Origin: a virus
IMG/VR virus record: IMGVR_UViG_3300036832_001500
Location: 1 to 37,667 of that record
Reading direction: 5' to 3' (one strand)
Length of the DNA: 37,667 nt
Below, in pieces: positions 16,937 through 34,883 of this stretch. Each line of letters starts with the position of its first letter. Positions within the stretch are counted from its first letter, which is position 1. The translations under genes were made by a program, and so were the position numbers. Below the pieces are notes generated by a model. It searched no databases. It worked only from the letters and a program-made list of their open reading frames with translations, and was not told the origin of the DNA.

Positions 16937-18432
16937 GACGGGTAGGTCTTGCTCGACTCGAGGGGGCTGTACTCAGACTCGATTGCGAGGAATTGCGCGG
17001 CGCCGGCGCCGTTTGTCTGCGTGACCGCAAGTTGCAGTTGACCGGAGCTCGCGCCGCAGCGAAGCCGGACGCGCTCGATGCGATTGTTGAACGTGGCCGG
17101 CAACGTCGGCGTCAGCGTCTTCTGCCCGATGTTCACATCGGTTCGGTACTTCACGGTGTAGCTGGGCGCGGGCCCGCCAGCCGGCGCTGCCGAGTAGGTG
17201 AAGTAGAGGGTGTCCCAATTCTGGAACGCCATCGAGGGGAGCCACTTGCGACGCACGTGTGTGAAGCCGCGATAGAAGCCGGTTAAGAGCGAGGGCTGGA
17301 TCGCGGTGTTGTCGTTGTCCGCCGAAGTAAACGCCGTGAACATCTGGTTGACGTCCATGACGCGGCCCGTTGCGGAGGAGGCAACGTGGGTCGTGTCGGG
17401 AGCGCTCGAGTCGACGATGCGCGCGAACGCACGAAAGCCGACATTGCTCATTCGATACCAGGTGCCGCGGAGAAGGTCGTAACAGAGGCAGTAGAAGAAC
17501 GACGTTCCGCTCGTGAAGGAGAGGATCAAGGTGTCTTGGCAAATGGCCGTCGCCATCGTCGAGGAGCCGACGACGAAGCCGTTCGCTAGGAGCCGCCAGA
17601 AGGAGGCAATGCCGCCGGTTGCGGTGAGGTTTTTCAGCGTCGCGCCGTCCGACTGGTAGACCCCCGTCCCGCTCGCCCAAATGAGCGTGTCGTTGTAGTT
17701 GACGATCGTGCGCGCGTCGATACAGCCGACCTGGAACGCAACGTCCTGCGTCATGTCGCCGGTCGTCGTAGAGGATGGAGGCGTGGTGCCGCGGAGACGC
17801 TCCGTCGAGCCCTGGTGGAAGAGCAAGATCGTGTTCGGAAGAACGCCGATGCCAGTGACCGGAAGCTGCGTGTCGAACCAGGCGTTCGTTGTGTCCCATA
17901 CGCCGGCGGAGTCGCCGATCGGTCCGAACCAAACGCGGTTCGGGAGCGCCGTGCTGTTCGCAAGCAGCAAGCGGTCCTTCCAGACCGCGTTGTAAATGCC
18001 AGTCGGCGCCGTGGCCGAGAGCGTGCCGAGCGTCGTCCCGTCGTAGGACTTCGGCGTGGTCGAGCCGCTCTTCGCGGAGATACACACGAGCCCCGTTGCG
18101 CCGGTGCGATGGAACGCGGGGTTCTGCGCTACGGCGAAGGTCGCGCCGATGCTCGTTTGCGTTCCGCTCGTGTAGCTACGAAGCGTCCCGCCCGAGTCAA
18201 TCGCAAGCGTCTTCGAGCCCGCGGCGAACGGCGCCCAGATCAGCGCGTCGACGTTCGTTGTCGAGAAGGTCGGAGAGGCCCATGCCCAGCCAGCGCGCGA
18301 GCGTAGGGGCGCGCCGAAGCGGACGGGGAGCCAATCGGCGAGGTCGAGCAGCGCGCCGGCCGGGAGCGAGTTGGGCGGGAAGTCGGACACGAATCCCGTG
18401 AACTCCGTTTGCAGCGGGTAGGGAAGTCCCAC
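16933..18432 (-). CDS. tail protein, beta-propeller-like
   Basis: A 499-residue protein, predominantly beta with many Gly/Thr/Ser turns and repeated aromatic/Gly strand patterns (for example FSTTNVDALIWAPFAAGSKTL and GTGVYQSDGATLK). It follows directly after the tail-tubular-A-like adaptor in gene order. In podoviruses that position holds the tail-tubular-B or nozzle protein, which is also propeller-like and about this size or larger. The call is from order and composition. Confidence 0.55.
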   Translation of the reverse strand: MGLPYPLQTEFTGFVSDFPPNSLPAGALLDLADWLPVRFGAPLRSRAGWAWASPTFSTTNVDALIWAPFAAGSKTLAIDSGGTLRSYTSGTQTSIGATFAVAQNPAFHRTGATGLVCISAKSGSTTPKSYDGTTLGTLSATAPTGIYNAVWKDRLLLANSTALPNRVWFGPIGDSAGVWDTTNAWFDTQLPVTGIGVLPNTILLFHQGSTERLRGTTPPSSTTTGDMTQDVAFQVGCIDARTIVNYNDTLIWASGTGVYQSDGATLKNLTATGGIASFWRLLANGFVVGSSTMATAICQDTLILSFTSGTSFFYCLCYDLLRGTWYRMSNVGFRAFARIVDSSAPDTTHVASSATGRVMDVNQMFTAFTSADNDNTAIQPSLLTGFYRGFTHVRRKWLPSMAFQNWDTLYFTYSAAPAGGPAPSYTVKYRTDVNIGQKTLTPTLPATFNNRIERVRLRCGASSGQLQLAVTQTNGAGAAQFLAIESEYSPLESSKTYPS

Positions 18433-19122
18433 CTAGACGCCTTGCTGGCTCGGAGAGCCGATCAGGCTTACGCGGCCCGGGTAGCGACCGACGACGGCAG
18501 GGCTGAGCTTGCGTCCGCCGCGCTGGCGCATCGCCTTCTTGATCGCGATGAGCTCGGCTTCGTAGAGCTTCTGCCACATCTGGCCCATCTGCGAGGAGCT
18601 GTTGTCGGTGTACTGAGCGGCGCGGAAACAGCCGTAGTACTCGATCGCCTTGTGCCACTCGACGGGAATGTCTGATGGTGTGTCCGCGGGGCTCGAGAGC
18701 GTCGCCGGCCGCGGCACGTTGTAGTAGGTGATGACGTCCGCCGCGGTCGGAGTGGGGTAGACCATCAAGGTGGTCGCGCCGTTGAGCGCGTAGAAGCGGA
18801 CCGGCGGCGTGCCTCCGCTTGCGCCCACCCGCATCTGGATGATCTCGCCCGGCGTCTTGCGGTACATCAGGTACGCCTGCGTCTGGCCGACCGGAGTGAC
18901 GAACATCTCCTCGAGCGCCAAGATCGTGGTCGAGAGGGTGTAATCGAACTGAGCGGCGACGAGAATCAACGTCCCCGAGACGACGTTGATCCGACAACGC
19001 TGCATGACTTCGACGACGCCTTCGTTCACCCATCCGTCGACGAAGGTCTGGTCGCTGTTCCCGATGGCGTCGAGCCCGAGCTGCGCGGTGATGTTCGTGC
19101 GAAAGTCCTGAAGGGTCGCCAC
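18433..19122 (-). CDS. head-tail adaptor, tail-tubular-A-like
   Basis: A 229-residue protein with the pattern of podovirus adaptor proteins (T7 gp11 or P22 gp4-like). There is an N-terminal helix, TFVDGWVNEGVVEVMQRCRI, then strand pairs around FDYTLSTTILALEEMFV. A central YALNGATTLMVYPTPTAADVITYYN and a C-terminal IPVEWHKAIEYYGCFRAAQY helical hairpin follow. These proteins form the ring under the portal and carry the tail. It abuts the next gene with no gap. Confidence 0.75.
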   Translation of the reverse strand: MATLQDFRTNITAQLGLDAIGNSDQTFVDGWVNEGVVEVMQRCRINVVSGTLILVAAQFDYTLSTTILALEEMFVTPVGQTQAYLMYRKTPGEIIQMRVGASGGTPPVRFYALNGATTLMVYPTPTAADVITYYNVPRPATLSSPADTPSDIPVEWHKAIEYYGCFRAAQYTDNSSSQMGQMWQKLYEAELIAIKKAMRQRGGRKLSPAVVGRYPGRVSLIGSPSQQGV

Positions 19123-19148
19123 ATGCGCTTACTCCGAAGGAAGAGGGT

Positions 19149-20603
19149 TTACTGCCCGACGCCCAGCAAGGTGCGCAGTCGGCGAATGCCGACGCCGGCG
19201 CGTTGCACGACCGTGCCGATCGTGGCGGTGATCGTGCTCGTCGCCGTCAACAGGAGTTGATGCACGGAGCCGGTGACGATCGTCGCGGTACCAGTGACGT
19301 TCGCGGTTAGGTTCTTCAATGTCTTACGCGCGATCGTCGGCGTGATTGCGACGTTTGCTCTCACGAGCTTGTTTGTCTGACGAGTGATCGTCGCCGTGAG
19401 CGTGGAGCTCGTGGTCAGCAACTTGTTCGCCTGACGCTGGATCGTCGCGGTGATCGCGACGTTCGCGGTAAGCGTGAGCAACTTGACGAGCTTGGCAGTG
19501 AGCGTCGCCGTGATCGTGACGTTCGCCGAGAGGAGCTTGTTGATCTGCCGCGCGATCGTGGCCGTTATTGCGACGGTGACGGTCAGGAGCTTGTTCGCCT
19601 GCCGCTGCATGGTCGCCGTGACCGCGACGTTCGCCAGGAGCGTCACCAATTTGACGAGCTTCGGCAGAAGTGACGGAGTGATCGTCACGTTTGCAGTGAC
19701 GGCCTTGTTCACCTGCTTGATCGCGGTCGCAAGGAGCGTGACGTTCGCGAGGACGCCTTTGTTGACCTGCTTCTGAATCGTCGGCGTGAGCGTCACGTTC
19801 GCCGTGATGGTCAGCGGATTCGTGACGTTGGTCGGCGCAATGACCTGCGGGACGTAGGGCTGGCGGAACGTGCGGCGAAGAGCGATCGGCCCGACACTCT
19901 TGTTCGGCACGTAGAGGGGGATCGCTCGAGCTGCGGATGTGCCGGCGGAATAGTGCGCCTGAATCCGCTGCACCGAGAGCACGCTGTTGTAGACCGCGCA
20001 GTGACCGAGATCGCCAACCCAAGGATCGTTGATCGCGCCCCAGGCGCCCCATTCAACGTTGCCCGGGGTCGCCGTGAAATCCGCGGACATGATGAACGGG
20101 CCCTTCGTGAGCCCGTTGATATAGAGCGTCACCTGTTTCGTCGAGCCCGTGTAGGTGACGGCCCAATGAAACGCGACGCCGGCGGCGGGGCAGGCGCCCG
20201 TCCAGGTCGCGGAGGCAAGCGCGGAGCTCGTCCAGAAGCCGATGTCGTTCGTGGCCGCGTTCGCACGCAAGAGCGGGAAGCCACCCGCCTGCGTCTCATC
20301 GCCGCCAAAGATCGTGTCATTGGTCGTCGTTGTCGCGCGACGAGCCCATCCCTCGAACGTCAGCGTCGAATTAGTCACGAACGGGTTGAAGCCACCACGG
20401 CAACGGCCGGCCGTCCCGTTCAGCGTGACGCAGGTAGCGAAGTCGGTCGGGACCATGCTCGGCGTCGAGTACGTGGTGCCGGTCGCGTCGTAGGTCCCGT
20501 TGTGCGCGCCCGTCGAGCTATCGGTTGCCGTCGTCCCGCTCGTCTCGTTCAGGATCAAGTACTGAACGGGGCTGTCGGCTAGAACCTCGCTCCGGTAGGA
20601 CAT
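19149..20603 (-). CDS. LamG-domain fibre with eleven tandem repeats
   Basis: A 484-residue protein. Residues about 5-225 form a concanavalin-like LamG domain: DSPVQYLILNETSGT start, FEGWARR, FHWAVTYTGSTKQVTLYINGL and DLGHCAVYN. Such domains bind sugars. Residues 268-467 are eleven tandem units of 18-20 residues (consensus like ANVTITATIxRQxNKLLT). These may build a solenoid or trimeric stalk. It lies in the tail region and is a good candidate for the receptor-binding fibre. The repeats end in a short basic C-terminus (RRLRTLL). Confidence 0.75.
   Translation of the reverse strand: MSYRSEVLADSPVQYLILNETSGTTATDSSTGAHNGTYDATGTTYSTPSMVPTDFATCVTLNGTAGRCRGGFNPFVTNSTLTFEGWARRATTTTNDTIFGGDETQAGGFPLLRANAATNDIGFWTSSALASATWTGACPAAGVAFHWAVTYTGSTKQVTLYINGLTKGPFIMSADFTATPGNVEWGAWGAINDPWVGDLGHCAVYNSVLSVQRIQAHYSAGTSAARAIPLYVPNKSVGPIALRRTFRQPYVPQVIAPTNVTNPLTITANVTLTPTIQKQVNKGVLANVTLLATAIKQVNKAVTANVTITPSLLPKLVKLVTLLANVAVTATMQRQANKLLTVTVAITATIARQINKLLSANVTITATLTAKLVKLLTLTANVAITATIQRQANKLLTTSSTLTATITRQTNKLVRANVAITPTIARKTLKNLTANVTGTATIVTGSVHQLLLTATSTITATIGTVVQRAGVGIRRLRTLLGVGQ
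19203..19802 (-). repeat. eleven 54-60 base tandem coding repeats
   Basis: Imperfect tandem units of 18-20 codons in the C-terminal half of the LamG fibre. Units start with ANV, VTV or similar, and carry a TATI core and an xNKLL end. Two units (starting at residues 304 and 360) share the divergent KLVKL end and are 20 residues long. Such arrays change copy number readily by slippage or recombination. Confidence 0.8.
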
Positions 20604-20618
20604 TCGCCCTCCCGAGGG

Positions 20619-21206
20619 TTAGTTCAGGCCCCAGACCATCAGTTGAAGGATCTGAATCTGGTTCGAGACCGAGCTCGCTGAGCACGCGACGTTGAAGTTG
20701 ATGAAGTTGACGATCGTCGTGTCGACGGTCGCGACGGTCCCCGGCGTTGCTCCGCCGCCGAAGACGGCGAAGTTGAAGGGGCTCGCAAAGCCGCCGCCTG
20801 CGATCTGCCCGAGCCCGCGCACGGTCGAGTTGGTGCCCGCTGCGCCGATCGTCTCGAGGATGATGTCGCCCTCGAGCTCCCAGAGCTGGTTCGAGACGCC
20901 CGAGCCAGTGGTGATCGCCGCGGTGCCCAAGACGTTCGCCGACGTCGTATTGCCGGCGGCGCCGAAGCGAATACTGAAGGTGAAGGTCGGCGTGGCCGTG
21001 GTGGAGACGATGCCGCGAGCGACGAGCCGCAAGCCGCGCCCGACGCTGCTCTTGTTCGGCAACCAGAAGTCGGCGGGAAGGTGAGCCTGGACGCCCATGC
21101 CCGCGGTGTCATTGATCTGCACTTCGGCCGTGAAGGTGTTCTTCGCGGTGCCGGCCGACGTCGAGGCATAGATCAGCTCTTGGCTTGTGCCAGTAAGGAA
21201 CGACAT
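20619..21206 (-). CDS. beta-rich tail or capsid accessory protein
   Basis: A 195-residue protein that is beta-rich with many Thr/Gly/Ser residues (TPTFTFSIRFGAAGNTTSANVLG and QLWELEGDIILETIGAAG). This suggests a jelly-roll or decoration domain. The C-terminus (IQILQLMVWGLN) is an ordered strand. It overlaps the upstream stop by one base. No known family is certain. Confidence 0.6.
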   Translation of the reverse strand: MSFLTGTSQELIYASTSAGTAKNTFTAEVQINDTAGMGVQAHLPADFWLPNKSSVGRGLRLVARGIVSTTATPTFTFSIRFGAAGNTTSANVLGTAAITTGSGVSNQLWELEGDIILETIGAAGTNSTVRGLGQIAGGGFASPFNFAVFGGGATPGTVATVDTTIVNFINFNVACSASSVSNQIQILQLMVWGLN

Positions 21207-21601
21207 TAGGCGAACTTCGCTTTGATCGTGAACTGAATGGCGTCACCGATCGCGAGCCCGATGCCCGTGAAGTCGCCCTTCAGATAGAGGTTGCCCGAGG
21301 CGATCGTGATGTTGTCGAAGAGCCCCGCGTTCGTGACCGTGCCGGCGCCGGTTGCGGTCAACGTCGCGAGCACCTGGTAGGTGTCGCTGGTGGTCGTCGT
21401 CGTCTGTTGCGTCGACGTGCCGGCGGTGCGGGACCCCGACGTCGCGGCGAGGTCGAGCGCCTTCTCGCCGAACAAGGTGGTGTCGGTATCGGCGGTAGTA
21501 CCGGCGGACGTTCCCCAGCCGACGTTGAGCGGTTCGGTGCCGGCGCCCTTGAGCCGGTTGGTGATGATCGCGCGTCCGGTCGCGACTACAAGCGTTGCCA
21601 T
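21206..21601 (-). CDS. small tail-type structural protein
   Basis: A 131-residue protein. The N-terminus reads ATLVVATGRAIITNRLKG, followed by GTEPLNVGWGTSAGTT, a Thr-rich stretch, and TNAGLFDNITIASGNLYLKGDF. This pattern is familiar from small conserved phage proteins near receptor-binding genes. It is beta-rich with no enzyme motif. The start is ATG at 21601, and its stop overlaps the next ATG. Confidence 0.6.
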   Translation of the reverse strand: MATLVVATGRAIITNRLKGAGTEPLNVGWGTSAGTTADTDTTLFGEKALDLAATSGSRTAGTSTQQTTTTTSDTYQVLATLTATGAGTVTNAGLFDNITIASGNLYLKGDFTGIGLAIGDAIQFTIKAKFA

Positions 21602-21787
21602 CTAGCTCTCCTTCAGGTGCCTGTTTGCGCGCCGCGTGCGAAGCGCGGCCATGAGTCGACCGGGCCCGTAGCGCCAGTGAAGTGCGGAGTCGCTTACGAC
21701 GCCAAGCGGTTCTTTCGTCCCGTCAGCGCGAATGACGACGGCCTCGATCTGGACGCGTTCCACGCGCCCTTCAGCGGATTGATCCAT
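21602..21787 (-). CDS. small basic protein, unknown
   Basis: A 61-residue protein that starts at ATG 21787 (MDQSAEGRVERVQIEAVVI). The first half forms strands (QIEAVVIRADGTKEPLGVVS) and the second half is Arg/His-rich and helical. It directly abuts the next late gene (stop at 21602). The longer frame upstream lies inside the preceding gene and is not used. Function not recognised. Confidence 0.5.
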   Translation of the reverse strand: MDQSAEGRVERVQIEAVVIRADGTKEPLGVVSDSALHWRYGPGRLMAALRTRRANRHLKES

Positions 21788-21795
21788 GTCGCCCC

Positions 21796-22116
21796 TTACT
21801 CGTAGGTGAAGGCGACGTGCCCGGAGACTTGCACTGCGCCGTCCAGGTTCAGAATCAGCGCCTCGCCGAGCCCGCAAAGAAACCAACGGGTGTCGATGCC
21901 ACCTGTAGCGGCGATGCCGCCGTTAGCGATGAACGGCATCGCGCCGGACTTGTCGGTCGCGCCGCTCTTCCACTTGCACGCTACGGCGCCGGCTGCGACC
22001 AATGCGTAGCTGTGCACGACGATCCGACCGTTGCTGTTCGCTGGAACGATCGTGGTGTCGCCGGACGCTGCCGTCGAGACCGGAGCGTCGCGGATCTGAG
22101 CGGCTTCGCGTGCCAC
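21796..22116 (-). CDS. small beta-rich virion protein
   Basis: A 106-residue protein reading as a compact beta domain: DTTIVPANSNGRIVVHSYALVAAG, then KWKSGATDKSG and WFLCGLGEALILNLDG, with a VSGHVAFTYE end. This pattern is known in small phage head or tail-decoration proteins. GTG at 22116 overlaps the upstream TAG by one base. Placement in the virion is inferred. Confidence 0.6.
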   Translation of the reverse strand: MAREAAQIRDAPVSTAASGDTTIVPANSNGRIVVHSYALVAAGAVACKWKSGATDKSGAMPFIANGGIAATGGIDTRWFLCGLGEALILNLDGAVQVSGHVAFTYE

Positions 22117-22442
22117 TACTTCGTGAGCTTCGCCAGTGCGTCGACGAGCTGGGCCGCGGCTTCGGCCTGAGCGCTAGACGCTTCGGCCTGAGTCGACGCC
22201 GCCTTCGCCGCTGTGTTCGCGGCGGCTGCGTCGCGGTCAGCCTTGTCGGCGCGAGCGTTCGCCGCAGCGAGATCCGCCGTCAGCTTGTCGATTGACTCGC
22301 GGGCTGCGATCGCCTCGTTCTGGTAGCTAGCGAGATCGCGGACGCGCTCCTCGAGCGCTGTGATCTGGCGAGCCGACTGGTCGAGCGCGGCCTCATACTC
22401 TGCCGCCTGGTCTTCCGGCGACAACTTGGTCTTCGTAGGCAA
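22116..22442 (-). CDS. coiled-coil protein
   Basis: A 108-residue protein dominated by charged and Ala-rich helix from residue ~10 to the end (SARQITALEERVRDLASYQ, then ADLAAANARADKADRDAAAAN). It is strongly predicted to form a coiled coil. TTG at 22442 is chosen because AGGAGAGAG lies just upstream; the in-frame extension to 22529 would run into the basic peptide gene. It may be a scaffold or fibre-chaperone-like part, but the function is unknown. Confidence 0.6.
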   Translation of the reverse strand: MPTKTKLSPEDQAAEYEAALDQSARQITALEERVRDLASYQNEAIAARESIDKLTADLAAANARADKADRDAAAANTAAKAASTQAEASSAQAEAAAQLVDALAKLTK

Positions 22443-22452
22443 CTTCTCTCTC

Positions 22453-22569
22453 CTAGACCTTGTCGTTGTTTTTGCCCAGCCGAGCGTCGCGGGCCCGCTT
22501 CTGCTTGCCCACCCGCTTGCGACGCCCACGCGTCCGGTTTTTCTCAGAGACGCCGCTCTTACGAGCCAC
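22453..22569 (-). CDS. tiny very basic protein
   Basis: A 38-residue Arg/Lys-rich peptide (VARKSGVSEKNRTRGRRKR at its start). GTG at 22569 overlaps the end of the zinc-ribbon gene by 11 bases. No good Shine-Dalgarno is seen, so translation is uncertain, perhaps coupled. It could bind nucleic acid. The call rests on operon position and skewed composition. Confidence 0.4.
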   Translation of the reverse strand: MARKSGVSEKNRTRGRRKRVGKQKRARDARLGKNNDKV

Positions 22570-22933
22570 GGACGCCCGGAGGGAGGACGATCTTGCTCTT
22601 CGCGCGCCGCTCCTCGAGCTCGAGGATCTCGTCCTCAAGCGACTGCCGCGGGCCTAGCCACTGCGTCCCCTGATAGTCCGCCTCGAGCTGGTCGAGCTGC
22701 GAGCGGCGGATCGGGAAGCCACACCCTGGCATCGCGCAAATCTCAGGGAACGCCTCGCCCTGGGGCTCGTAGCACTTCGCGCACACGCGCCCTTCGCGCA
22801 TCCGCTCGAACGTTTCCGCGTCGATCGTGACGCGCGCGTCGAGCGTGCGCCGGCCTTCGTCGAGGATCACGTAATTCTGCGGGTCGTGTTCAACCGCGCG
22901 GATGCCGGGCTTCTTGCGCCAACGCTCTTCCAC
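22559..22933 (-). CDS. zinc-ribbon protein of the glycan region
   Basis: A 124-residue protein with CAKC and, about 15 residues later, CAMPGC, spaced as in a zinc ribbon. N-terminal strands (NYVILDEGRRTLDARVTID) and a C-terminal coiled-coil-like helix (LEDEILELEERRAKSK) surround it. It directly abuts the glycosyltransferase gene upstream. The family is not recognised; it may be structural or an adaptor. Confidence 0.6.
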   Translation of the reverse strand: MEERWRKKPGIRAVEHDPQNYVILDEGRRTLDARVTIDAETFERMREGRVCAKCYEPQGEAFPEICAMPGCGFPIRRSQLDQLEADYQGTQWLGPRQSLEDEILELEERRAKSKIVLPPGVRGS

Positions 22934-23611
22934 TTAGACGCCTACTGCCTTCGACTTCGGGATGTGATGGTCGTCGTGGACGTTCGCGCCGCCGACCGGA
23001 TGGAAGCTGCCCAAGCTCTTGTGTAGGGCTCGCCAGAAAAGCCCATCCGCGATGTCCGGGTCCGCGTGCTGCATATCAAGCGACCATCGGTCTTCGGTCA
23101 GGCGGTGAATCACCTGCGTGTAGTTGAGGTTGCAGAACGCGTCTTCGATCGGTGTCTCGGCGACCGAGACGAGCGGCGCAAAACCCGTGCGCTTCTGAGT
23201 CACGTAGACCGCGCCCCATTCCGGGTGATGACTTAGGGCATCAACGGCGAGCGCGTACTTGTACGGACTAGGCATCGAGTTGTTGTCGAGGTACGCGATC
23301 GCCTCGCACTCCGTGTGGTCGAGCGCGTAGTTGATCTTGTACGAGTACGGGATGACCTTGTAACCGGCCTCGTCTCGAGGAGTGGGGAGGATCTCGATCT
23401 TCGCGTTGGTGGGAATGCCATCGAGAAGATGAAGTTCGAAGAGCTCGTCGAACGCGTCAAGCATGGCGTCGCGATCGTCTTCGTCCTCGCACATAAGCCA
23501 GACTTCGTCGGGCTCGTGAACGCCGTCGACGAAGAGCCTGTGCATGAGCGGAAGCGTGTTTTCGTAGCGGCCGTGAAACGTCGCTATGACTGCAAGTCTG
23601 ACTGCCGGCAC
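22934..23611 (-). CDS. family 2-like glycosyltransferase
   Basis: A 225-residue protein with features of the GT-A fold. It starts with a strand-loop-helix (LAVIATFHGRYENTLPLMHRL), has VWLMCEDEDDRDAM, and a central IAYLDNNSMPSPYKYALAVDAL, where the D-x-N/D-like motif would bind the nucleotide-sugar metal. The C-terminal HPVGGANVHDDHHIP adds possible ligands. It would transfer a sugar to a phage or host acceptor. GTG at 23611 overlaps the upstream cytidylyltransferase gene, so the two are coupled. Donor and acceptor are unknown. Confidence 0.65.
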   Translation of the reverse strand: MPAVRLAVIATFHGRYENTLPLMHRLFVDGVHEPDEVWLMCEDEDDRDAMLDAFDELFELHLLDGIPTNAKIEILPTPRDEAGYKVIPYSYKINYALDHTECEAIAYLDNNSMPSPYKYALAVDALSHHPEWGAVYVTQKRTGFAPLVSVAETPIEDAFCNLNYTQVIHRLTEDRWSLDMQHADPDIADGLFWRALHKSLGSFHPVGGANVHDDHHIPKSKAVGV

Positions 23612-24015
23612 CTTGCGATTACCTCCGAACTCGAGATGTCAGCGGTGTACGGCAAATAGAGCATCTCTATGCCGTAGTCACCTAGGAACTCTTCTGTGAT
23701 GCCGAGCTGGCGAAGAAGGTCAGACCCCTGCCAATCGTCACCATGAGCTATATACCGCGGACGCCAACGCGTAATCGTCGGCGCGGAGTTTGCGCCCTCG
23801 AGGTTGACGTCGACGTGAGTGACGTACTTGCACGCTTCAACCACTGCCCAGCGTTCGGCCAAGTTCATTATCGGTTGCCGCTTATAGGCCGCGGCGAAGT
23901 CGTCTGGGTTGAGCGCCACAACCACATCCCCGTAGCGACAAGCTCTCTTGAGGAGCTGAACGTGCCCCCAATGGAAGAGATCGAACGTCCCGCCAATGTA
24001 AACGAGATCAGGCAT
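23584..24015 (-). CDS. cytidylyltransferase-like protein (TagD type)
   Basis: A 143-residue protein with the nucleotidyltransferase signature GGTFDLFHWGH (residues 8-18) and, near the end, ISSSEVI, the second signature. A middle motif, HGDDWQG, resembles glycerol-3-phosphate cytidylyltransferases (TagD). Such enzymes join CTP to a phosphorylated alcohol, giving CDP-glycerol or related donors; the sugar-phosphate adenylyl type (HldE-like) is the alternative. ATG at 24015 overlaps the methyltransferase stop by eight bases. It would activate a substrate for transfer by neighbouring enzymes. Confidence 0.82.
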   Translation of the reverse strand: MPDLVYIGGTFDLFHWGHVQLLKRACRYGDVVVALNPDDFAAAYKRQPIMNLAERWAVVEACKYVTHVDVNLEGANSAPTITRWRPRYIAHGDDWQGSDLLRQLGITEEFLGDYGIEMLYLPYTADISSSEVIARCRQSDLQS

Positions 24016-24493
24016 CTTTTCGCGCGATTCCGAATACACCGGGATGCCCTGGCTGCGGGTCCGGGCTAACCTCGAGAACTTCTAGTCCCACATACTCGAA
24101 CAAGAAGTTCAAGGCGTCTTCGGTGAAGCGCCAGAAGTCGCCCGGGTATTCGTGGTAGGGGAAGCCGATCCCGCGCGTGGTGATGATCAAGTATCCGCCG
24201 GGCGCGAGCACCCGTTCCATCTCTGCCATCGAAAGCCAGAAGGTGGAGTCGTGCTCAAACATCTCCGTGGTGATCACGCACTGAAACTGCTTGTCGGCGA
24301 AGGAGAGCTTCGACGCGCGCATGACGTAGTCGACGCCTTTGCCGGCCTCCATGTCGACGCCGATGTACTGGCCGGTGAAGAACTCGCGGGGGGAGCCGTT
24401 GTAGTTTCGACTGCCTACCTCGAGAGTCTCGAGCTCCGCGAGCTCGTACTTCCTGACGGTTGAGCGCACCCACATGCGCACGCTCTCATGCAA
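24008..24493 (-). CDS. class I SAM-dependent methyltransferase
   Basis: A 161-residue protein. LEVGSRNYNGS (residues about 24-34) is the SAM-binding glycine motif, YIGVDMEAG the acidic loop, and FQCVITTEMFEHDSTFWLSMAEMERVL the motif IV/V region. LAPGGYLIITTRG follows, as in Methyltransf_11/23 proteins. The TTG at 24493 has GGAGG at good distance and overlaps the end of the glycosyltransferase gene. It may methylate a sugar or a nucleotide-linked glycan. DNA methylation is less likely, since no target-recognition part is present. Confidence 0.8.
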   Translation of the reverse strand: MHESVRMWVRSTVRKYELAELETLEVGSRNYNGSPREFFTGQYIGVDMEAGKGVDYVMRASKLSFADKQFQCVITTEMFEHDSTFWLSMAEMERVLAPGGYLIITTRGIGFPYHEYPGDFWRFTEDALNFLFEYVGLEVLEVSPDPQPGHPGVFGIARKDA

Positions 24494-25511
24494 CGCCGAC
24501 CGCCTCCTTCCAGCGCCATATCTCGTGCTCGATCAGGCGGTTGTCGAGCACGTAGTTCTTCGCGATCGTCGCGTAATGCTTGACCGCGTCACGGTTTTTG
24601 ACCGCGTAACGGACCGCCTTGAGAAACTCTTTTGGCGTCTCGCAGGTGGGCACGAGATCCCACCAGGGCTGGTAGGGGATCGTGCGCGAGACGATCGGCA
24701 TCGCGCCGGCCATCGCGTATTCCATCGCCTTGATGTCGGACTTTCCATTCGCCCACGTACCGGGCCTTAGTGGGCAAACACCAATGTCGAGCCACTGCAA
24801 GCTCTTGCGGTAGAGCGCTAGGTCGGTCGTCCATTCCGCGTGGACGTGGGGGAATGACCACGGTCTTTTGAGACCGAACATGACCACTTCCACACCGGGC
24901 TGTTCGGACGCCCAGGACAAGGCGCGGCGGACGTCTTCGGCGTCGTAGAAGTGCGAGTGGCTTGCGGCGTAGCCGATTCTGAGGATGCCATCTTCGGGCT
25001 TCTCCGGTTCCGGCCAATCGTCGACGTCGACCGAGTTGCGACACACGTAGACGTTCTCGTTCAACTTCCGGTACGGCTTCGCGAGCTCTTCGGTCGTGAC
25101 TACAACGCCGTCGACGCATTCGGCTAGGCGCTGATGGGCGCGAATCGAATGCTTGTCATTGACCAAGTCGAAATCGTAGGACCAGTCAGTCGCGCGATTG
25201 GGGATCTCGGGAGGAGTGATCAGGTAGTTGTCATCGACTTCCATCAGCACGCGACAACCAGCCTCTTGCTGCGCGCCCATCAGGATGCCGCGCGTCGCGT
25301 TGCCGGCGAACGCCCAGATTGCGGCGCCACCCTTCTGACGCGGCATCGTGATGTAGCTGTCTTCGGTCTTGACGAGATCGTCGAACCGAAGCTGCAACGT
25401 CTGTCCGGGAAGACGACGGGAAGGTACCTCGCAACGCCAGTAGGTATTTCCCCCTGGCTTTTGCACCCACCAGGTTGCGAGGTACTCGCCGTCGAGCTCG
25501 AGCTTCAGCAC
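24486..25511 (-). CDS. GT-B glycosyltransferase (GT4-like)
   Basis: A 341-residue protein. The N-terminal half has GGAAIWAFAGNATRGI and LMEVDDNYLITPP. The second half has the donor-site pattern of GT-B enzymes: GYAASHSHFYDAEDVRRAL, VVMFGLKRPW and SDIKAMEYAMAGAMPIVS, with the EX7E-like acidic region. The last helix ends in EIWRWKEAVGV. It probably uses a nucleotide sugar, with an acceptor on the virion, the host envelope or a lipid. GTG at 25511 overlaps the upstream gene. Confidence 0.8.
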   Translation of the reverse strand: MLKLELDGEYLATWWVQKPGGNTYWRCEVPSRRLPGQTLQLRFDDLVKTEDSYITMPRQKGGAAIWAFAGNATRGILMGAQQEAGCRVLMEVDDNYLITPPEIPNRATDWSYDFDLVNDKHSIRAHQRLAECVDGVVVTTEELAKPYRKLNENVYVCRNSVDVDDWPEPEKPEDGILRIGYAASHSHFYDAEDVRRALSWASEQPGVEVVMFGLKRPWSFPHVHAEWTTDLALYRKSLQWLDIGVCPLRPGTWANGKSDIKAMEYAMAGAMPIVSRTIPYQPWWDLVPTCETPKEFLKAVRYAVKNRDAVKHYATIAKNYVLDNRLIEHEIWRWKEAVGVA

Positions 25512-26083
25512 TACGCTTCGATAAGCGTCTCGTCCGTGACCGGAGTCGCGCCGATTGCCTCGAGCGCGTCGATCACTTCCTGGCGGTTGGCGTTCTGCCG
25601 CTCGTATGCCACAACCTCGAGCGCATCGAAACCGTCCTCTTCGACCTTGCGCGCGATCGCGATCGGCGTCGGGGCGCCGCGCACGCCGCGGAAGGAGTCG
25701 TAGTTCGGCCAGGGCGGAGCGAGCTTCGGCTCTTCGACGAGGATGAAGTCGGTCCCGTATTCGGGGAGCGAGAGCAAGAACTGCTCCATCTCGATCCGCT
25801 TCTCGTCAGTGATCCGCTTCTGCTGCTGGAAGAGCTCCGTGTCGAACACCGAGAAGCGTGTCAACGGGTCGATCTGAGTGACCATGTCGACTTCAGTCGG
25901 GAGCCCGTAGTTGATGAAGGTCTCGCGCGCCGCGGTGATCTCATGCGGGCGCATTGAGCCGTAGAGATCGAACTCGCAAATCAGCGCCGGCTGAATCTCG
26001 TGCTCCTGGCCGGTCGCGAAATGCTCGATGATCTCGCGCTGAAAGATCACCTGGTAGCGCTTGTACTTGGCAATGAACCTCAA
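25511..26083 (-). CDS. conserved head-region protein
   Basis: A 190-residue protein directly downstream of the major capsid gene. The N-terminus (MRFIAKYKRYQVIFQREI) is an ordered strand/helix unit, and residues 120-160 read LPEYGTDFILVEEPK. The C-terminal EVIDALEAIGATPVTDE is helix-like. Similar small proteins behind capsid genes in SU10-type heads are accessory or neck components. The TTG at 26083 follows GGAGG seven bases upstream. Function unknown. Confidence 0.55.
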   Translation of the reverse strand: MRFIAKYKRYQVIFQREIIEHFATGQEHEIQPALICEFDLYGSMRPHEITAARETFINYGLPTEVDMVTQIDPLTRFSVFDTELFQQQKRITDEKRIEMEQFLLSLPEYGTDFILVEEPKLAPPWPNYDSFRGVRGAPTPIAIARKVEEDGFDALEVVAYERQNANRQEVIDALEAIGATPVTDETLIEA

Positions 26084-26104
26084 GGGTTGTCCTCCTAGAA
26101 AGAT

Positions 26105-26136
26105 GGAGGAGCCGAGCGGTCGGGCCCGGCCCCTCC
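26105..26136 (-). terminator. hairpin between capsid gene and next gene
   Basis: On the minus strand GGAGGGGCCG and CGGCTCCTCC form a ten-base stem with one G-U pair and a 12-base loop, followed by a modestly T-rich ATCTTTCTA. It sits after the capsid stop (26169). It would partly end transcription and so raise capsid mRNA relative to downstream genes. Confidence 0.45.
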
Positions 26137-26168
26137 TTCTGACCCCGAAGGACGATCGCGCTGCCGGT

Positions 26169-27338
26169 CTAGCCGGTCACGCCCTTCAGGATGCCGTGGC
26201 ACTTCTCCTGCGCGAACTCGAACGAGAACTCCGTGCGGTACTCGTGCGTGATCTCGTCCGCGTCGTTCGCCTGGCGGTTACGCAAGAGCTGCGTGTTCCG
26301 CTCACGGAGCGGGCGCAGCTTCACGTAGTCCATGTCGATCAGGAAGCCCCAGCCGCCATAGCCCGTGGAGGTCGACGAGAAGTCGTTCCACGCGCGCTTG
26401 ACAACGATCGGGACCTGCCAACCGTAGGCACCAGAGATGTAGGCGTCGACCTTCGCGCCGAACCTCCGGTCATCAACCGTCGTCGGGTTCCATGCCGTCT
26501 TCAGGAAGCCCGAGATTGCGCGGGCGACGAGCGGTGCACAGAAGAACACCTTGTTCTTCGAGCCGTTCTGCAGCGCTGCCTGAAGGAAGACATCGAAGCC
26601 GGAGTGCGAGAGCGCGCCGGCGACGTTGGTGATGTTGGTTGCGATGTACTCGACCGCTCCGCCGCAGGTACCCACCGAGTTGGGGGCTGCGGACGTGAAG
26701 GAGCGGGCGCCCCAGAAGACCGTCTGCTCGATCGCGCGCTTGTGCTCGACGAGCTTCTTGACTTCCTCGTGCATTGGCGCGGGACCTCCGTAGGTTTCCA
26801 CCACGGATTCGGTCCCGGTGAAGCCGAACGGATCGCGCTGAATCTGGGTGTAGTTGTAACCCAGAACCTTCTTCGTGATGTGACGCGTGCCGAGCGTTGC
26901 GCCCTGCGCTGCCGCGTTACCCACGATCAGGAGATCCGAGCCCGTCTGTGCGGTCGCCGCTGCAACGGCGCCGAGCGCGCGGGTGACAGTGAGCGTGTCC
27001 GTCGCGACGGAGACCACCGAGAACGCTTCGCCGGTCTGGGCGATGCGGACGATGTCCTTCGGGCGGAAGTACGCTCCCTGGCCCGTGGTGACCACGATCG
27101 AAGTCGCCGCCGAAGTGGCGGACGCTGCGAGCGAGGAAAGCCGCGGGAAGAGCTGGTCTTCGAGCCAGTTGATCTGCTCACGAACGGCCGGCGTAGAGCC
27201 GAGCGTCATCAGCATGGTCGTGAACTGACTCTCGTCCGGGTCGAGCATCTTGATCTCGTTGTCCATGTCCACGACGAGCTCCGAAGAGAGAGGCGTCGCG
27301 GTGTCGACGAGACCTGTGGCAACAGTGACGTTTGCCAT
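26169..27338 (-). CDS. major capsid protein (HK97 fold, SU10-like)
   Basis: A 389-residue protein in the expected place after scaffold. It reads LSSELVVDMDNEIKMLDP, TTMLMTLGSTPAVREQINW (N-arm to E-loop region), VTRALGAVAAA, RHITKKVLGYNYTQIQRDPFG, and AFLIDMDYVKLRPLR-type C-terminal strands. The pattern fits SU10-like/DUF5309 capsid proteins. It forms the icosahedral shell. ATG at 27338 gives the natural length; the longer frame is the scaffold's shadow. The family call is from pattern memory. Confidence 0.82.
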   Translation of the reverse strand: MANVTVATGLVDTATPLSSELVVDMDNEIKMLDPDESQFTTMLMTLGSTPAVREQINWLEDQLFPRLSSLAASATSAATSIVVTTGQGAYFRPKDIVRIAQTGEAFSVVSVATDTLTVTRALGAVAAATAQTGSDLLIVGNAAAQGATLGTRHITKKVLGYNYTQIQRDPFGFTGTESVVETYGGPAPMHEEVKKLVEHKRAIEQTVFWGARSFTSAAPNSVGTCGGAVEYIATNITNVAGALSHSGFDVFLQAALQNGSKNKVFFCAPLVARAISGFLKTAWNPTTVDDRRFGAKVDAYISGAYGWQVPIVVKRAWNDFSSTSTGYGGWGFLIDMDYVKLRPLRERNTQLLRNRQANDADEITHEYRTEFSFEFAQEKCHGILKGVTG

Positions 27339-27402
27339 GAGGTTTTCGTACTCCGGTGTGTCGAGAGGAAAGGAAGCTCCGACTCGCCGGGGGGTATCTG
27401 GA

Positions 27403-28368
27403 CTAAGCCAGGCCCGCTGCTTTGCGGAATGCATCGGACTGCTGGAACGCCTCGTGAAAAGCGTCCAGGCCCGACTTGGGCTCACGTGATTGCGAGCCCG
27501 AGCTCGTCGCCACTGCCGCCTCTGTGCGTGCGGCGCGACTTGCCTCGTGCGTTTGGCGAGCGGCATCGGTTGCCGCTTGCGAGAGGTTCCCGGCCTGCTC
27601 CGCCTTCGTCCAGCGGTACAGGGTTTCGAGAACCTCCTGCTTGCTCGCCGCATCACCCGTCTGAAGAGCGCCGAGCACCGTCTTGGGGAAGCCGGCGATC
27701 GTCTCTTCGGTGATCGCGTTCATCACCTGGGTGAAGTCTTCGTGCTTTGCGGACGCCGCTTCGAACGCGGCGACAAACTGGTTGGTCGTCTGGACTTGCT
27801 CGACCTGCTGAAGCGCCGGCTGCATCTCGGCGCGGAGCTGAGCCATGTTCGCTTCGGAGACCTTGCGCGCGTGAAAGTCCATCGCGCCGACGTTGTCGAA
27901 CTCCGACCATGCGGCGAGCGCACGGTTGTAGAGGTAGCCGTCGCCGGTGTCGATCGCCTGCTGGGCGAGCGCTGGGATCTGCTGGGGGTTGTCGACCAGG
28001 AACTCGTCGATCGAGCCCGGGTCGTAAGGCGGAGTCTCGGGCTGGGTGATCTGGTCACGGAGCTGCGAGAACTCGTCACGGAGCGCACGAAGATCGCCGA
28101 TCTCGGCGCCCTGCTCGCCGAGCTTGACCTGCAGCTCGTCATAGGCTTTCTCGAGCTCGTCGACCGTCTTGTACTTGCCAGCAAGAAGCGGTTCCTCGGC
28201 GGGCTGCTCGTCTACGGGCTCGAGCCCCGGCTCGTCGGTCGTCTCCTCTTCGGGTGCCGCTACTTCTTCGCCGGTATCCGCCTCTTCGGCGGGCGGCTCT
28301 TCGGGCTCTTCCGCGGTCGGCAGGCTCGCTGCCTCGGCGAAGCGCGCCCGGAACTCGTCCACGCTCAC
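27403..28368 (-). CDS. scaffolding protein
   Basis: A 321-residue protein directly before the capsid gene. The first ~65 residues are an acidic, low-complexity tail rich in Glu and Pro. A coiled-coil core follows (LEKAYDELQVKLGEQGAEIGDL) and a helical C-terminal region with ALQQVEQVQTTNQFVAAFEAAS. The acidic N-terminus and coiled-coil body are typical of phage scaffolding proteins, which assemble the procapsid and then leave. GTG at 28368 overlaps the upstream gene by four bases. Confidence 0.8.
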   Translation of the reverse strand: MSVDEFRARFAEAASLPTAEEPEEPPAEEADTGEEVAAPEEETTDEPGLEPVDEQPAEEPLLAGKYKTVDELEKAYDELQVKLGEQGAEIGDLRALRDEFSQLRDQITQPETPPYDPGSIDEFLVDNPQQIPALAQQAIDTGDGYLYNRALAAWSEFDNVGAMDFHARKVSEANMAQLRAEMQPALQQVEQVQTTNQFVAAFEAASAKHEDFTQVMNAITEETIAGFPKTVLGALQTGDAASKQEVLETLYRWTKAEQAGNLSQAATDAARQTHEASRAARTEAAVATSSGSQSREPKSGLDAFHEAFQQSDAFRKAAGLA

Positions 28369-28631
28369 GCGCTATCTCCCTCTTCTCTGCTCTTCGCGAT
28401 CGCTCGCTCGAGCGTCTTCTCTGCAACTCCTGGGTATCGGGTGACGTGTTTCATTCCGGCCAGGAAGCCGCGCTTGTACTCGAAGTCGTCCGGCAACTCG
28501 CCGGTCGCCATGAGGTTCTTGCTTACGAAGTCGACGTACTTCTCGTGGTACTCGTCGATCGTGTCTTGAAGCTCTTGCCAGCTTGGGTGTTGCAGGAGAG
28601 CCTGCAAACGGCCGGCGCGTTGTTCATCCAT
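28365..28631 (-). CDS. small head-region protein, unknown
   Basis: An 88-residue protein, helical and charged, with LLQHPSWQELQDTIDEYHEKYV at the N-terminal half and a C-terminal helix that includes AKSREEG. It is coupled to both neighbours by short overlaps. The position between the CHAP protein and scaffold suggests a head-assembly part, but no family is recognised. Confidence 0.6.
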   Translation of the reverse strand: MDEQRAGRLQALLQHPSWQELQDTIDEYHEKYVDFVSKNLMATGELPDDFEYKRGFLAGMKHVTRYPGVAEKTLERAIAKSREEGDSA

Positions 28632-29520
28632 TGACTCGCACGAACGTGACGTGTGCGACGTCGAACGGGGAGCGCTCGCGACTCATAACTTGACCGCCGT
28701 TCGAGTTGCTCGAGGTTGACGTATTGCCTTCGACTGCGATCCAGCCGCCCGGATTGCCGGACATGAAGATCCCGATGTGGTCGTAGTCGCCGCCGTTCCA
28801 GTCGTAACAGACAAGATCGCCGGGCATCGGATCGTTCGTGACCTTGAGCCCGTACTGACCGTTCTGCGCTGCGTTGACGACGTATGGGACATACGCCCAA
28901 CGCGAACCACGAACGAAGCTCTGGCTCTCCACGCCGATGTCGATCGCGCCGAGCACGAAACACCAGGTCAAAAACATCGAGCACCACGGCTGGTTATTGG
29001 CGCCGTACCAGTCGCCGTACTTGTTCGCGTTGTTCGGGCCTTCGACGTAGTTGATCTGTCCCGTCGCGCGCGCGAGCGCAGCTTGACGGAGCGTGCCGCT
29101 GCCGGCGGGCTCGTAGCCGCCGAAGCGTGACCACGCTTCTGCGATCAGAGTCGCGGCGACGCTGTCCATTGCCATCTCGCCCGCGTGAGGGAGACCGTCC
29201 GGGACGCGAATGCTGCGCAAGGTGTTGAAGGTGAGCTCGCCGATCCAACCCGTAGCTTCGATCGACTGCTGCCGTTGCACGCCGGCGATGCCGGTGTCAA
29301 TCACGTTGGGCCCCGCGCCATGACTGAAACCGTTCGAGTAAACGTTGTCGAACTGCTGCCACGGCCATCGACCGGCCCTAGAGCAAGTCCTCTTATACGC
29401 CTCTATGTCCGGCCCGTTGATGCTGCCCTTGCCCGAGTCAGGTGGATAGACAGGCCGCGGGAAACCAGGCACTTTCACCATCGGACCCCCGCTATACGCG
29501 TGCGTCCACCAGTCGCTCAA
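28624..29520 (-). CDS. CHAP-domain peptidoglycan hydrolase
   Basis: A 298-residue protein. Residues about 70-105 (GIAGVQRQQSIEATGWIGE) resemble a peptidoglycan-binding domain (PG_binding_1 type). The C-terminal part (about 165-295) is a CHAP amidase/peptidase: PWCSMFLTWCF with catalytic C180, PGDLVCYDW, DHIGIF with catalytic H248, and AVEGN with E264. It would cut the peptide part of the cell wall. The gene lies between portal and scaffold rather than with the other lysis genes, suggesting a virion-associated hydrolase. TTG 29520 follows GGGAGG. Confidence 0.82.
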   Translation of the reverse strand: MSDWWTHAYSGGPMVKVPGFPRPVYPPDSGKGSINGPDIEAYKRTCSRAGRWPWQQFDNVYSNGFSHGAGPNVIDTGIAGVQRQQSIEATGWIGELTFNTLRSIRVPDGLPHAGEMAMDSVAATLIAEAWSRFGGYEPAGSGTLRQAALARATGQINYVEGPNNANKYGDWYGANNQPWCSMFLTWCFVLGAIDIGVESQSFVRGSRWAYVPYVVNAAQNGQYGLKVTNDPMPGDLVCYDWNGGDYDHIGIFMSGNPGGWIAVEGNTSTSSNSNGGQVMSRERSPFDVAHVTFVRVNG

Positions 29521-29529
29521 AGAGCCTCC

Positions 29530-31401
29530 CTAGACGTTGTTCGGTCCGCCGGTTGCGGCGCCCATGCGCTGCACGGCTGCGACCGGCGACTGCGAGAACG
29601 CGTTCGACGGCGAGTTGACGTCCGTCGCTTGCGGTGCCGACACGTTGGGCCCGCCCGGCTGCGGCGGTTGCCCTGGTTGCCCCGGCTGCGCCGGCTGCTG
29701 CATGTTCGGCAACGGGTTCTTCACCGTGTAGTACTTCGACGTGTCCTGCACATCGAACGCCTGCAGGTAGTCGTCCATAAACGCCTGCAGGTTGAGCGGC
29801 GTCGCCGACTGCGCGAAGGGGAGCGCTGCCTGTAGCGCGGTCATCAACTTCGACTGCGCTTCGGCGCGACGCTCCTGGCGGTTCAGGCTCTCGTCCATCA
29901 TCTCGCCGACGATGTGGTAGCGACCCTGGATCTCCATCGGCGAGATGACCTTGATCAGCTTGCCTCCGTCGGGCCCGATAACCTCGAGCGCGCGCTCCTC
30001 GCGGATGAACTGCTGGTTGAGCTCGATCCACTGCTCGCCCATCCGGTTGTAGGCCCACGTGAAGTTCTGCTTCTTGGCGGCGAGCCGGCGCTGCGCGAGG
30101 TTCGTGAAGATCGAAGCTGCAGTTGCGGTCTTGTTGTCGACCTGAGTGTCCTGCCCTGAGAGAAGCGGCATTCCGCCCGAGATGTTCTGCAGGTCGCCCT
30201 TGATGCCGGCTTCTGCCTGCACGGCGAGCTCCGCGGTGATCGGCGGCGTCTCGAGGAACTTCACCTGGTTGACGTCGTCGACGAGCCAGCGCTCGCCCGG
30301 AGCGAACTCGAACATATCGGGGTCGTCGACGTCGCTGCGGATGATCGCGATCGCGTTGTTCAAGAGCTGCAGGTTGTCGAGCCGCTGGTTCATCAGCGTC
30401 CACAACATCTCCTGAAGATCCGAGATGACTTCGACTTCGGAGATCCCCGGGATGCGGAAGAGGTCCGGCATCGACGTTGCGTCAATGAACGGGTACTGAC
30501 CGTGCTGGAACGGGTTCGGCTTCGCCTTGCCGCCCGGCGTCAGACAGACCTTGCGGTTACCGACCGTGACCACCCAAATCTCGCCCTGGTCGTAGAACCA
30601 CTGCTCGAGAACTTCGATCTGGTCTTTCGAGCGGTTGGTACGGAAGAGCTCTTGCTCGCGGTTAATGAGCTGCCCGGAGAAGTCGCGCGTCTCTTTGAGC
30701 TGGTCGACGTTCTCGTAGACGCCGGCTTTCTCGAGCTGCTTGAGCTCGTCGAACGAGTACCAGACGCGATGTGTGATCCGCATCGCGCGCTCGAGTGAGG
30801 TCGCAGCTTCCTGCCAGATCCAGTCGCGGACATCGACGACATCGACCGTGGGGTTGTCATGGAAGATGTGTGTGCCCGGGACGGACTGAATCTGCGGCAC
30901 TGTCCACGGTGAGCCGTCGACGGGGACGCGCGCTTCGACGAGTCGGTTCTTCGTTCCCTCGCTGTAGCGCCAGTAGTTCTTGAGCACGGACAAGCCGGCG
31001 ATGAAGCCCTGCATCGCGAACGGGCGCTGCTTCTCGGCGAAGTGATCGACGTCGAGCTGCTCCGTGAGGAGGATCTCCATCGCCTTGGCGCCGTTGGCTT
31101 CCGCCTCGATGATCGCCGGCGACGCCATCTTCGGCCGCGCCTTGACCTGCCAACGCGGATCGGGATCGAGCGCCGAAGCGATCATCGTCTCGATGATCTG
31201 CAGGATGTAGGGCGGGTGCTGCTTGTTCGTCCAGGAGGCCGAACGTGACCGCTGCTCGAGGATGCCGCGATAAGCCCGGTAGCGACGATCGACTGCGAGC
31301 GCAAAGTCGCGGTGCGGCTTGTCATCCTGGTCGAACGCCTTCATTACGCGCCCGACGATGTCCGGCGGTTCGCCAGGCTTGACCGCAGCGATGCTGCTCA
31401 T
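29530..31401 (-). CDS. portal protein (P22/podovirus-like)
   Basis: A 623-residue protein in the expected place between terminase and head genes. Its patterns fit podovirus portals: RYRAYRGILEQRSRSASW, IIETMIASALDPDPRW, FAMQGFIAGLSVLKNYWRYSEG, VPGTHIFHDNPTVDVVDVRDW, LWTLMNQRLDNLQLLNNAI, then a Pro/Gln-rich C-terminal tail. It forms the dodecameric ring for DNA entry and exit. The size fits the family. Confidence 0.85.
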   Translation of the reverse strand: MSSIAAVKPGEPPDIVGRVMKAFDQDDKPHRDFALAVDRRYRAYRGILEQRSRSASWTNKQHPPYILQIIETMIASALDPDPRWQVKARPKMASPAIIEAEANGAKAMEILLTEQLDVDHFAEKQRPFAMQGFIAGLSVLKNYWRYSEGTKNRLVEARVPVDGSPWTVPQIQSVPGTHIFHDNPTVDVVDVRDWIWQEAATSLERAMRITHRVWYSFDELKQLEKAGVYENVDQLKETRDFSGQLINREQELFRTNRSKDQIEVLEQWFYDQGEIWVVTVGNRKVCLTPGGKAKPNPFQHGQYPFIDATSMPDLFRIPGISEVEVISDLQEMLWTLMNQRLDNLQLLNNAIAIIRSDVDDPDMFEFAPGERWLVDDVNQVKFLETPPITAELAVQAEAGIKGDLQNISGGMPLLSGQDTQVDNKTATAASIFTNLAQRRLAAKKQNFTWAYNRMGEQWIELNQQFIREERALEVIGPDGGKLIKVISPMEIQGRYHIVGEMMDESLNRQERRAEAQSKLMTALQAALPFAQSATPLNLQAFMDDYLQAFDVQDTSKYYTVKNPLPNMQQPAQPGQPGQPPQPGGPNVSAPQATDVNSPSNAFSQSPVAAVQRMGAATGGPNNV

Positions 31402-31737
31402 CTAGCCCAGCTTCCGAAGCGTGCGCGTCGCGCTGCCGGCGCCGCCGCCAAGCGCGGCTTCGGCGTCCTGCTGGTCCTTCGCGAGATACTGATGCAGCGT
31501 CGCGAGCAACTTCGCCATCGTCGCCTTGTCTTCCGCGTCGGGCTCGACAGACTGATAACGCTCGCCGAGCGCGATCATCTGCTTGAGGATCTGCATCGGC
31601 TCGCGCTCGCCGCCGCCGGCGGCGCCCGCATCGGGCCCTGGCGGCGGTGCGGCCCCGCCGACCCCGGGAGCGCCGCCGGCGCGCGCGGCGAGCATGGCGA
31701 GAAGAGCCGGCGGTGGTCCGGCGGTCTGCGGATTCAT
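31402..31737 (-). CDS. small Pro/Gly-rich protein before portal
   Basis: A 111-residue protein. The first 50 residues are low complexity (Ala/Gly/Pro). The second half is helical (MQILKQMIALGERYQSVEPDAEDKATMAKLLATLHQYL). It directly abuts the portal gene. Such proteins are known as conserved companions of podovirus portals, but the function is unknown. Confidence 0.6.
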   Translation of the reverse strand: MNPQTAGPPPALLAMLAARAGGAPGVGGAAPPPGPDAGAAGGGEREPMQILKQMIALGERYQSVEPDAEDKATMAKLLATLHQYLAKDQQDAEAALGGGAGSATRTLRKLG

Positions 31738-31882
31738 GCGTGCTCTCCTTCAAAAGCCGTGTCAAATCGGCTTAACAATCGAGATGGTTGAGCCAAGAAC
31801 GAGCTCGAGCGAGCACGTTTTCGAGGTTCGCGAAAAGACCGTTTACTAAAATGGCACCGTCAACTCACGGAGGAGGATCGGA
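31738..31882 (+). promoter_or_regulatory. control region for the plus-strand island
   Basis: A 145-base gap with two signals. TACTAAAAT ends at 31852 with a TAAAAT -10-like hexamer (31847-31852), 30 bases before the ATG at 31883. An inverted repeat, GGCTTAAC...GTTGAGCC (31769-31794, one mismatch), lies further upstream, and TTTTCG...CGAAAA (31818-31836) sits near the -35 position. Together they suggest a regulated rightward promoter inside the leftward late operon. No -35 consensus is visible. Confidence 0.4.
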
Positions 31883-32053
31883 ATGCCGACCTGCAAGAAG
31901 TGCTCCTACAACGGCGCAACTGCGAACTTCCGCAGGAGCCCGAAGGGCGGTTTCATCTGTCTCGACAAGCAGGGCTGCGCGCACGACGCAAAGGTGCGCG
32001 CGCAGGGACAGGAGCCCGGGCCCCGCTCACTGCAAGCGCTGCTGCGGTTCTGA
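31883..32053 (+). CDS. small zinc-binding protein
   Basis: A 56-residue protein on the opposite strand from its late-gene neighbours. CKKC (residues 4-7) and a second Cys pair around residues 26-32 (FICLDKQGC) give a zinc-ribbon-like layout. A strong ribosome site, GGAGGAGGATCGG, precedes the ATG. It is coupled to the next gene by a TGATG overlap. Possibly an early or lysogenic nucleic-acid-binding protein. Function unknown. Confidence 0.6.
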   Translation: MPTCKKCSYNGATANFRRSPKGGFICLDKQGCAHDAKVRAQGQEPGPRSLQALLRF

Positions 32054-32151: not shown

Positions 32152-32169
32152 GCGACGGTGCTGGCGTGG

Positions 32170-32334: not shown

Positions 32335-32347
32335 TGCTGTTCTCCTT

Positions 32348-34882: not shown

Positions 34883-34883
34883 C

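Follow-up and report, generated by a model that had tools for sequence, protein, structure and literature searches.

Among the virion genes of an uncultured virus (IMG/VR record IMGVR_UViG_3300036832_001500) lie four overlapping genes that are predicted to encode glycan enzymes, which raises the question of whether these enzymes act on the virus particle, on the host surface or on phage DNA. The record, which may be a fragment, was analysed as a single stretch of 37,667 bases, referred to here as the window. Its portal, capsid and adaptor proteins are all of the SU10 type (PF23899, E 1e-23; PF17236, E 1.9e-43; PF24175, E 1.6e-19), and by these three families the window is assigned to an SU10-like phage. 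A tyrosine integrase is encoded at 4224-5570 (PF00589, E 3.6e-27), therefore the phage, a virus of bacteria, is probably temperate. Two scans of genome contigs for a prophage carrying the capsid protein found none. Near the integrase, a plus-strand gene (6440-7942) encodes a 500-aa protein with DUF6551 and ParB-like matches.

Layout of the cassette in the head block

The four open reading frames, for a GT-B glycosyltransferase (GTB), a methyltransferase (MT), a cytidylyltransferase-like protein (CYT) and a GT-A glycosyltransferase (GTA), are all present on the minus strand between the capsid and adaptor genes (Table 1), as the initial annotation had described. Transcription on this strand would run through TerL, portal, scaffold, capsid, h190, the four cassette genes, h124 and more virion genes. 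The overlaps amount to 1 nt between h190 and GTB, 8 nt between GTB and MT, 8 nt between MT and CYT and 28 nt between CYT and GTA, and GTA and h124 abut; the cassette genes are predicted from this arrangement to be translationally coupled within the head block. No separate promoter had been seen in the initial annotation, and a search for sigma-70-like sites in 18000-35500, which found 0 against 1.7 expected by chance, lends this weak support. The strong, G+C-rich terminator-like hairpin directly behind the capsid gene may leave the cassette less strongly transcribed than the capsid gene, although it is a consensus match only and such sites are as frequent as expected (13 found versus 13.8). 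No match to the cassette block was returned by megablast against phage records.

Table 1. Coordinates of the cassette, its borders and neighbouring virion features, in minus-strand order
Feature	Positions	Strand	Basis and remarks
Major capsid protein, SU10 type, 389 aa	26169..27338	-	PF17236; ATG start at 27338 set by alignment with relatives
Terminator-like hairpin, directly 3' of capsid gene	26105..26136	-	13-pair stem, 10 G-C, T-rich tail
h190, conserved small head-block protein, upstream slot border	25511..26083	-	Homologues 3' of capsid gene throughout relatives
GTB, predicted GT-B glycosyltransferase, GT4-like	24486..25511	-	phrog_7162 and predicted fold; GTG start
MT, predicted class I SAM methyltransferase	24008..24493	-	PF08241; TTG start
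CYT, predicted cytidylyltransferase-like nucleotidyltransferase	23584..24015	-	PF01467, TIGR00125; best start ATG 24015 (listed ORF 23584-24039)
GTA, predicted GT-A glycosyltransferase, SpsA-like	22934..23611	-	Profile match to SpsA; GTG start
h124, CxxC zinc-ribbon-like small protein, downstream slot border	22559..22933	-	Directly 3' of h190 in L012 and many relatives
SU10-type adaptor	18433..19122	-	PF24175

Two further minus-strand genes of the window may be mentioned here. One (19149-20603) lies in the virion block and encodes a protein of 484 aa that includes a lectin domain of the LamG/concanavalin-like kind (PF13385, E 8.8e-12); the protein is also present in the related phages L015 and L048. 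The other (21206-21601) encodes a Thr/Ser-rich protein of 131 aa (26% S+T) that is 69% identical to its counterpart in L015, well above the 46% identity between the capsid proteins of the two phages; apart from the window, L015 alone has GTB and MT together in the slot behind h190.

Predicted activities of the four enzymes

GTB matches PHROG 7162 (E 1.1e-22), and its best Pfam match (E 0.022) lies below the cut-off. An AF2 model built from 11 sequences, those of the window and 10 relatives, reached a pLDDT of 88.5 and resembles GT4 structures, with Z scores of 25.2 for BshA, 24.9 for HepE and 24.0 for both PimA and MshA, and an rmsd of 3.2 over 302 aligned residues for BshA (3mbo). The model suggests a GT-B fold with two Rossmann-like domains in the GT4 arrangement, and GTB is accordingly a predicted glycosyltransferase; the motifs VDDNY, H..D and KSD.KA.EYAM.G are conserved. 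MT appears to be a class I SAM methyltransferase (PF08241, Methyltransf_11, E 4.4e-8, 34.1 bits against a cut-off of 21.2), and its relative in the same position in L015 is 61% identical.

Structure prediction, which had been proposed as a check on the enzymes, was informative for GTB and failed for GTA, whose single-sequence model (pLDDT 40) was too poor to use. Searched on its own, the GTA sequence gave no significant match among phage records, plasmids, viral contigs and 50 related records. Homologues were found by way of CYT neighbours: in four uncultured phages (L121, L126, L146 and L149) the gene directly after CYT encodes a protein 49-51% identical to GTA. A profile of GTA and these four homologues (A7) matched SpsA (1h7l) with an E value of 1.8e-6, profile positions 5-196 aligning to SpsA 2-208, and GTA carries DNN in register with the DxD position. 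GTA is therefore predicted to be a GT-A glycosyltransferase of the SpsA/GT2 kind. In the four phages both CYT and GTA are about 50% identical to those of the window, but the pair is located just upstream of TerL and not beside the capsid gene, and neither a GTB nor an MT like those of the window was found there. Among the phage records L114-L193, a very common order is CYT, in many cases accompanied by a GT2 gene, and then an ORF of 99-105 aa and one of about 430-520 aa; in L121, the sole one scanned, the latter is TerL.

CYT can be placed at the superfamily level. It passed the cut-offs of both PF01467 (E 2.7e-17, 63.6 bits) and TIGR00125 (68.2 bits), its PDB matches include ECT, Fom1 and TagD, and it contains the motifs GTFDLFHWGH (of the GxFDxxHxGH or GTFDLxHxGH type), ER and SSS/STT, all of which points to a member of the cytidylyltransferase-like superfamily. 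With TagD- and HldE-type nucleotidyltransferases it has the superfamily fold and the catalytic motifs in common, but it falls far under both equivalog cut-offs, scoring 65.9 bits with the TagD glycerol-3-phosphate cytidylyltransferase model TIGR01518 (cut-off 165.4) and 60.0 bits with the HldE/RfaE heptose-1-phosphate adenylyltransferase model TIGR02199 (cut-off 181.5). These scores are nearly equal and both far too low for the curated models to assign a donor to CYT. The earlier assignment as a TagD-like cytidylyltransferase thus stands for the superfamily and not for the TagD equivalog, and the chemistry derived from it, a CDP-activated alcohol made from CTP and glycerol-3-phosphate, is not established. 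Related CYTs are likewise divided: the heptose model scores slightly higher for that of L001 and for those encoded behind h190 in L070 and L124, the TagD model for those of L121 and Atuin.

CYT has at least 570 viral relatives; for the best 80 of these, Glycos_transf_2 matches were found in 20 of 89 genes directly adjoining the CYT genes. In Arthrobacter and Streptomyces phages, CYT and GT2 genes are found in replication regions, therefore a CYT-GT pair alone is not diagnostic of its target, and since such pairs also occur upstream of TerL, the capsid-side position is not a fixed property of these enzymes. This bears on the possibility that the glycosyltransferases place a CYT-activated group on phage DNA bases as protection against restriction. 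The homologous genes of Streptomyces phages are indeed located amid replication and nucleotide genes, and in Beuffert they adjoin a dNMP kinase gene. In the parts of the window scanned, however, where many genes are of no known family, hydroxymethylase, thymidylate-synthase-like and dNMP-kinase genes were not recognised, and the cassette lies between head genes and would be made with them, whereas DNA modification must precede packaging. We therefore consider DNA modification very unlikely.

A variable slot between h190 and h124

The cassette occupies a position that differs between related phages. The sister phage L012 (76-78% identity in the capsid protein) lacks all four genes: its capsid gene is followed by h190 and h124, which overlap each other by 4 nt; since such close phages lack it, the cassette is dispensable. 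In L002/L014 the slot contains GTB alone. When capsid proteins were clustered at 95% identity, 50 clusters contained the slot, which was empty in 28, held GTB in 19, GTB and MT in one (L015), CYT, GT2 and a further GT in one (L070) and the four-gene set in the window; GTB is thus the most frequent occupant. Three of the 22 occupied clusters (L019, L022/23 and L030) were found only via GTB, and without them 28 empty clusters stand against 19 occupied ones. A search for GTB across the whole of 27 records with an empty slot, possibly fragments, found none. On the capsid tree, slot state requires at least 5 changes. The slot is thus a hotspot at which glycan enzymes are gained and lost across SU10-like phages.

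The cargo of the slot varies in kind as well as in number. GTB is fused behind a GT2 domain in 9-10 clusters, and the slot holds GTB, CYT, a 242-aa gene and GT2 in L124, GTB and a CmcI-like methyltransferase in L054, and a nucleotide-sugar epimerase plus GT fusion in L106. L042 and L045 have, besides GTB in the slot, further genes upstream of TerL: a CYT-GT2 pair in the former and an MT in the latter. In L025, L026, L049, L064, L067, L073 and their kin, the slot contains a single GT2-GTB fusion protein of 520 aa. L105 and L106 carry, at about 3265-6350, genes similar to the ctKR88 genes labelled 'hyp', 'has synthase' and methyltransferase; these lie between portal and scaffold and form a second glycan-enzyme site in one phage.

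This variability, with its different MT, epimerase and GT families, could also be read as host-derived patchwork, in which a permissive intergenic slot collects glycan genes that have no role in the virion. The G+C content of the cassette (57-60%) is slightly under that of most neighbours (63-67%), as such an origin might suggest, though h190 is also at 61%. A merely permissive site, however, predicts mixed contents, whereas the recognised cargo of the h190-h124 slot is, by family assignment, nearly always glycan enzymes. The identity of GTB also tracks that of the capsid protein (r 0.82 for 12 unfused phages, permutation p 0.0002), a correlation that fits linkage or co-adaptation and that linkage alone would also yield. 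Taken together, the conserved catalytic motifs and this capsid-tracking identity, over a divergence of 40-50%, argue for selection on GTB, and we hold cargo without a virion role to be improbable.

Precedents and the likely target

No other contig was found to contain all four genes of the cassette, and beside the capsid genes of other phages only analogous sets were found. The initial annotation knew of no named system with this exact gene set in a podovirus-like phage, which was an overstatement, since sets of methyltransferase and glycosyltransferase genes on the capsid side have been published. The portal and protease genes of Cluster O mycobacteriophages flank genes for an O-methyltransferase and three GTs, whose products are synthesised during infection, do not form part of the virion and have been suggested to act on the capsid (PMC4351075). 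Glycosylation of capsid and tail tube has been reported for Corndog-type and Che8 mycobacteriophages, and that of the capsid reportedly requires gp38 in Corndog and gp110 in Che8 (PMC12363180, citing Freeman 2023). The Corndog-type set (gp35-gp38), which in Firecracker is gp33-gp36, is there likewise placed between portal and protease. These sets resemble that of the window in combining MT and GT genes, several of the latter in the mycobacteriophages, within the virion block, where they overlap and are co-directional, but they belong to long-tailed phages, occupy a different slot and have no cytidylyltransferase listed. Comparison of the window enzymes with Firecracker gp33-gp36 by hhalign gave no probability above 20 and nothing beyond the general GT2 fold. 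The window set would thus work like the Corndog-type set without being a member of it by descent.

Further sets, analogous and often non-homologous, adjoin the capsid or portal genes of phiPsal1, ctKR88, S-CBS4 and L001, and L070 and L124 add to these. The Pontimonas phage phiPsal1 has the order MCP, GT-B, MT, GT2 and neck protein, which resembles the window, and its MT is homologous to that of the window (37% over 95 aa; hhalign probability 99). It is, however, an HK97-type phage with MT on the opposite strand, without CYT and with a GT-B that has no detectable kinship to GTB. In L001, an uncultured HK97-type contig, MCP is followed by GT-B, CYT and GT-A, the CYT being 50% identical to that of the window, and its kin L170, L172, L174, L187 and L188 have GT-B, GT2 and CYT in a row; in all of these the GT-B and GT-A families are unrelated to those of the window and MT is missing. 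What is new is therefore the four-gene combination that includes CYT and the variable slot in SU10-like phages, virion-glycosylation sets as such being already known, mainly from a few mycobacteriophages.

The late, coupled expression, the glycan-enzyme cargo of the slot and the Corndog/Che8 precedent together favour glycosylation of a virion protein, which we consider the probable function of the cassette. The original proposal that the set modifies glycans and is expressed together with the virion genes is borne out to this extent by the coupling within the head block, by the gain and loss of glycan enzymes in the slot of relatives and by this precedent. The same enzymes could instead alter a polymer of the host wall or capsule, either an exopolysaccharide or one akin to wall teichoic acid, and so act against superinfection or re-adsorption to debris, whether in lysogens or late in an infection. 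The tyrosine integrase fits such a role, cell-surface polymers typically involve TagD-like chemistry and methyl-capped glycans, and TarM and HepE are among the GT4 relatives of GTB. Conversion genes, however, usually lie apart under their own promoter, whereas for the cassette, which is coupled to the late head genes, no such promoter was seen, and its slot travels with the head genes through many phages. A flippase, membrane anchor or lipid-carrier enzyme was not recognised among the genes scanned. On balance we regard conversion of the host surface as unlikely.

For glycosylation of a virion protein, we propose that the cassette serves as an accessory module for glycan synthesis, which has been inserted in the fixed h190-h124 slot of the late head-gene operon and is transcribed along with the capsid genes. 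GTB and the SpsA-like GTA would attach sugars, or units resembling them, to a virion protein, for which the major capsid protein or a different abundant head-block protein is the most likely candidate. CYT would provide the activated donor, a CDP-alditol or a sugar nucleotide, for its partner GTA, and MT would methylate the glycan. The benefit may be a shield or a changed surface, serving host-surface mimicry, tuning of adsorption or protection outside the cell.

A lead to the acceptor comes from the capsid alignment, in which three columns (S73, T129 and T132 of the window protein, numbered from its ATG at 27338) hold Ser or Thr chiefly where the phage has GTB, while every other residue class gave at most 1 such column. 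Random tree-shaped traits match this signal in 3-5% of cases, a post hoc and unadjusted figure, an independent-contrast test had 5 contrasts, too few to reach significance, and the columns sit in hard-to-align loops; these residues are a lead to candidate glycan acceptor sites, not evidence for them. A C-terminal extension of the capsid protein accompanying GTB was sought and none was found. It is tempting to speculate, although we think it quite unlikely, that the capsid carries a teichoic-acid-like or phospho-alditol decoration, CDP-derived and methyl-capped, which is made by CYT and GTA and anchored by GTB, and that swapping of the slot amounts to a serotype-like change of surface in which the acceptor residues, with S73, T129 and T132 as candidates, change with the enzymes.

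To our knowledge, only a few mycobacteriophages have been shown to have glycosylated particles, and in these the glycans changed recognition by antibodies. If the cassette does glycosylate a virion protein, a capsid-side slot whose glycan enzymes are gained, lost and swapped throughout an uncultured phage lineage would make decoration of the particle a common and evolving trait, and sister phages with and without the cassette would provide a natural test of the effect of a glycan coat.
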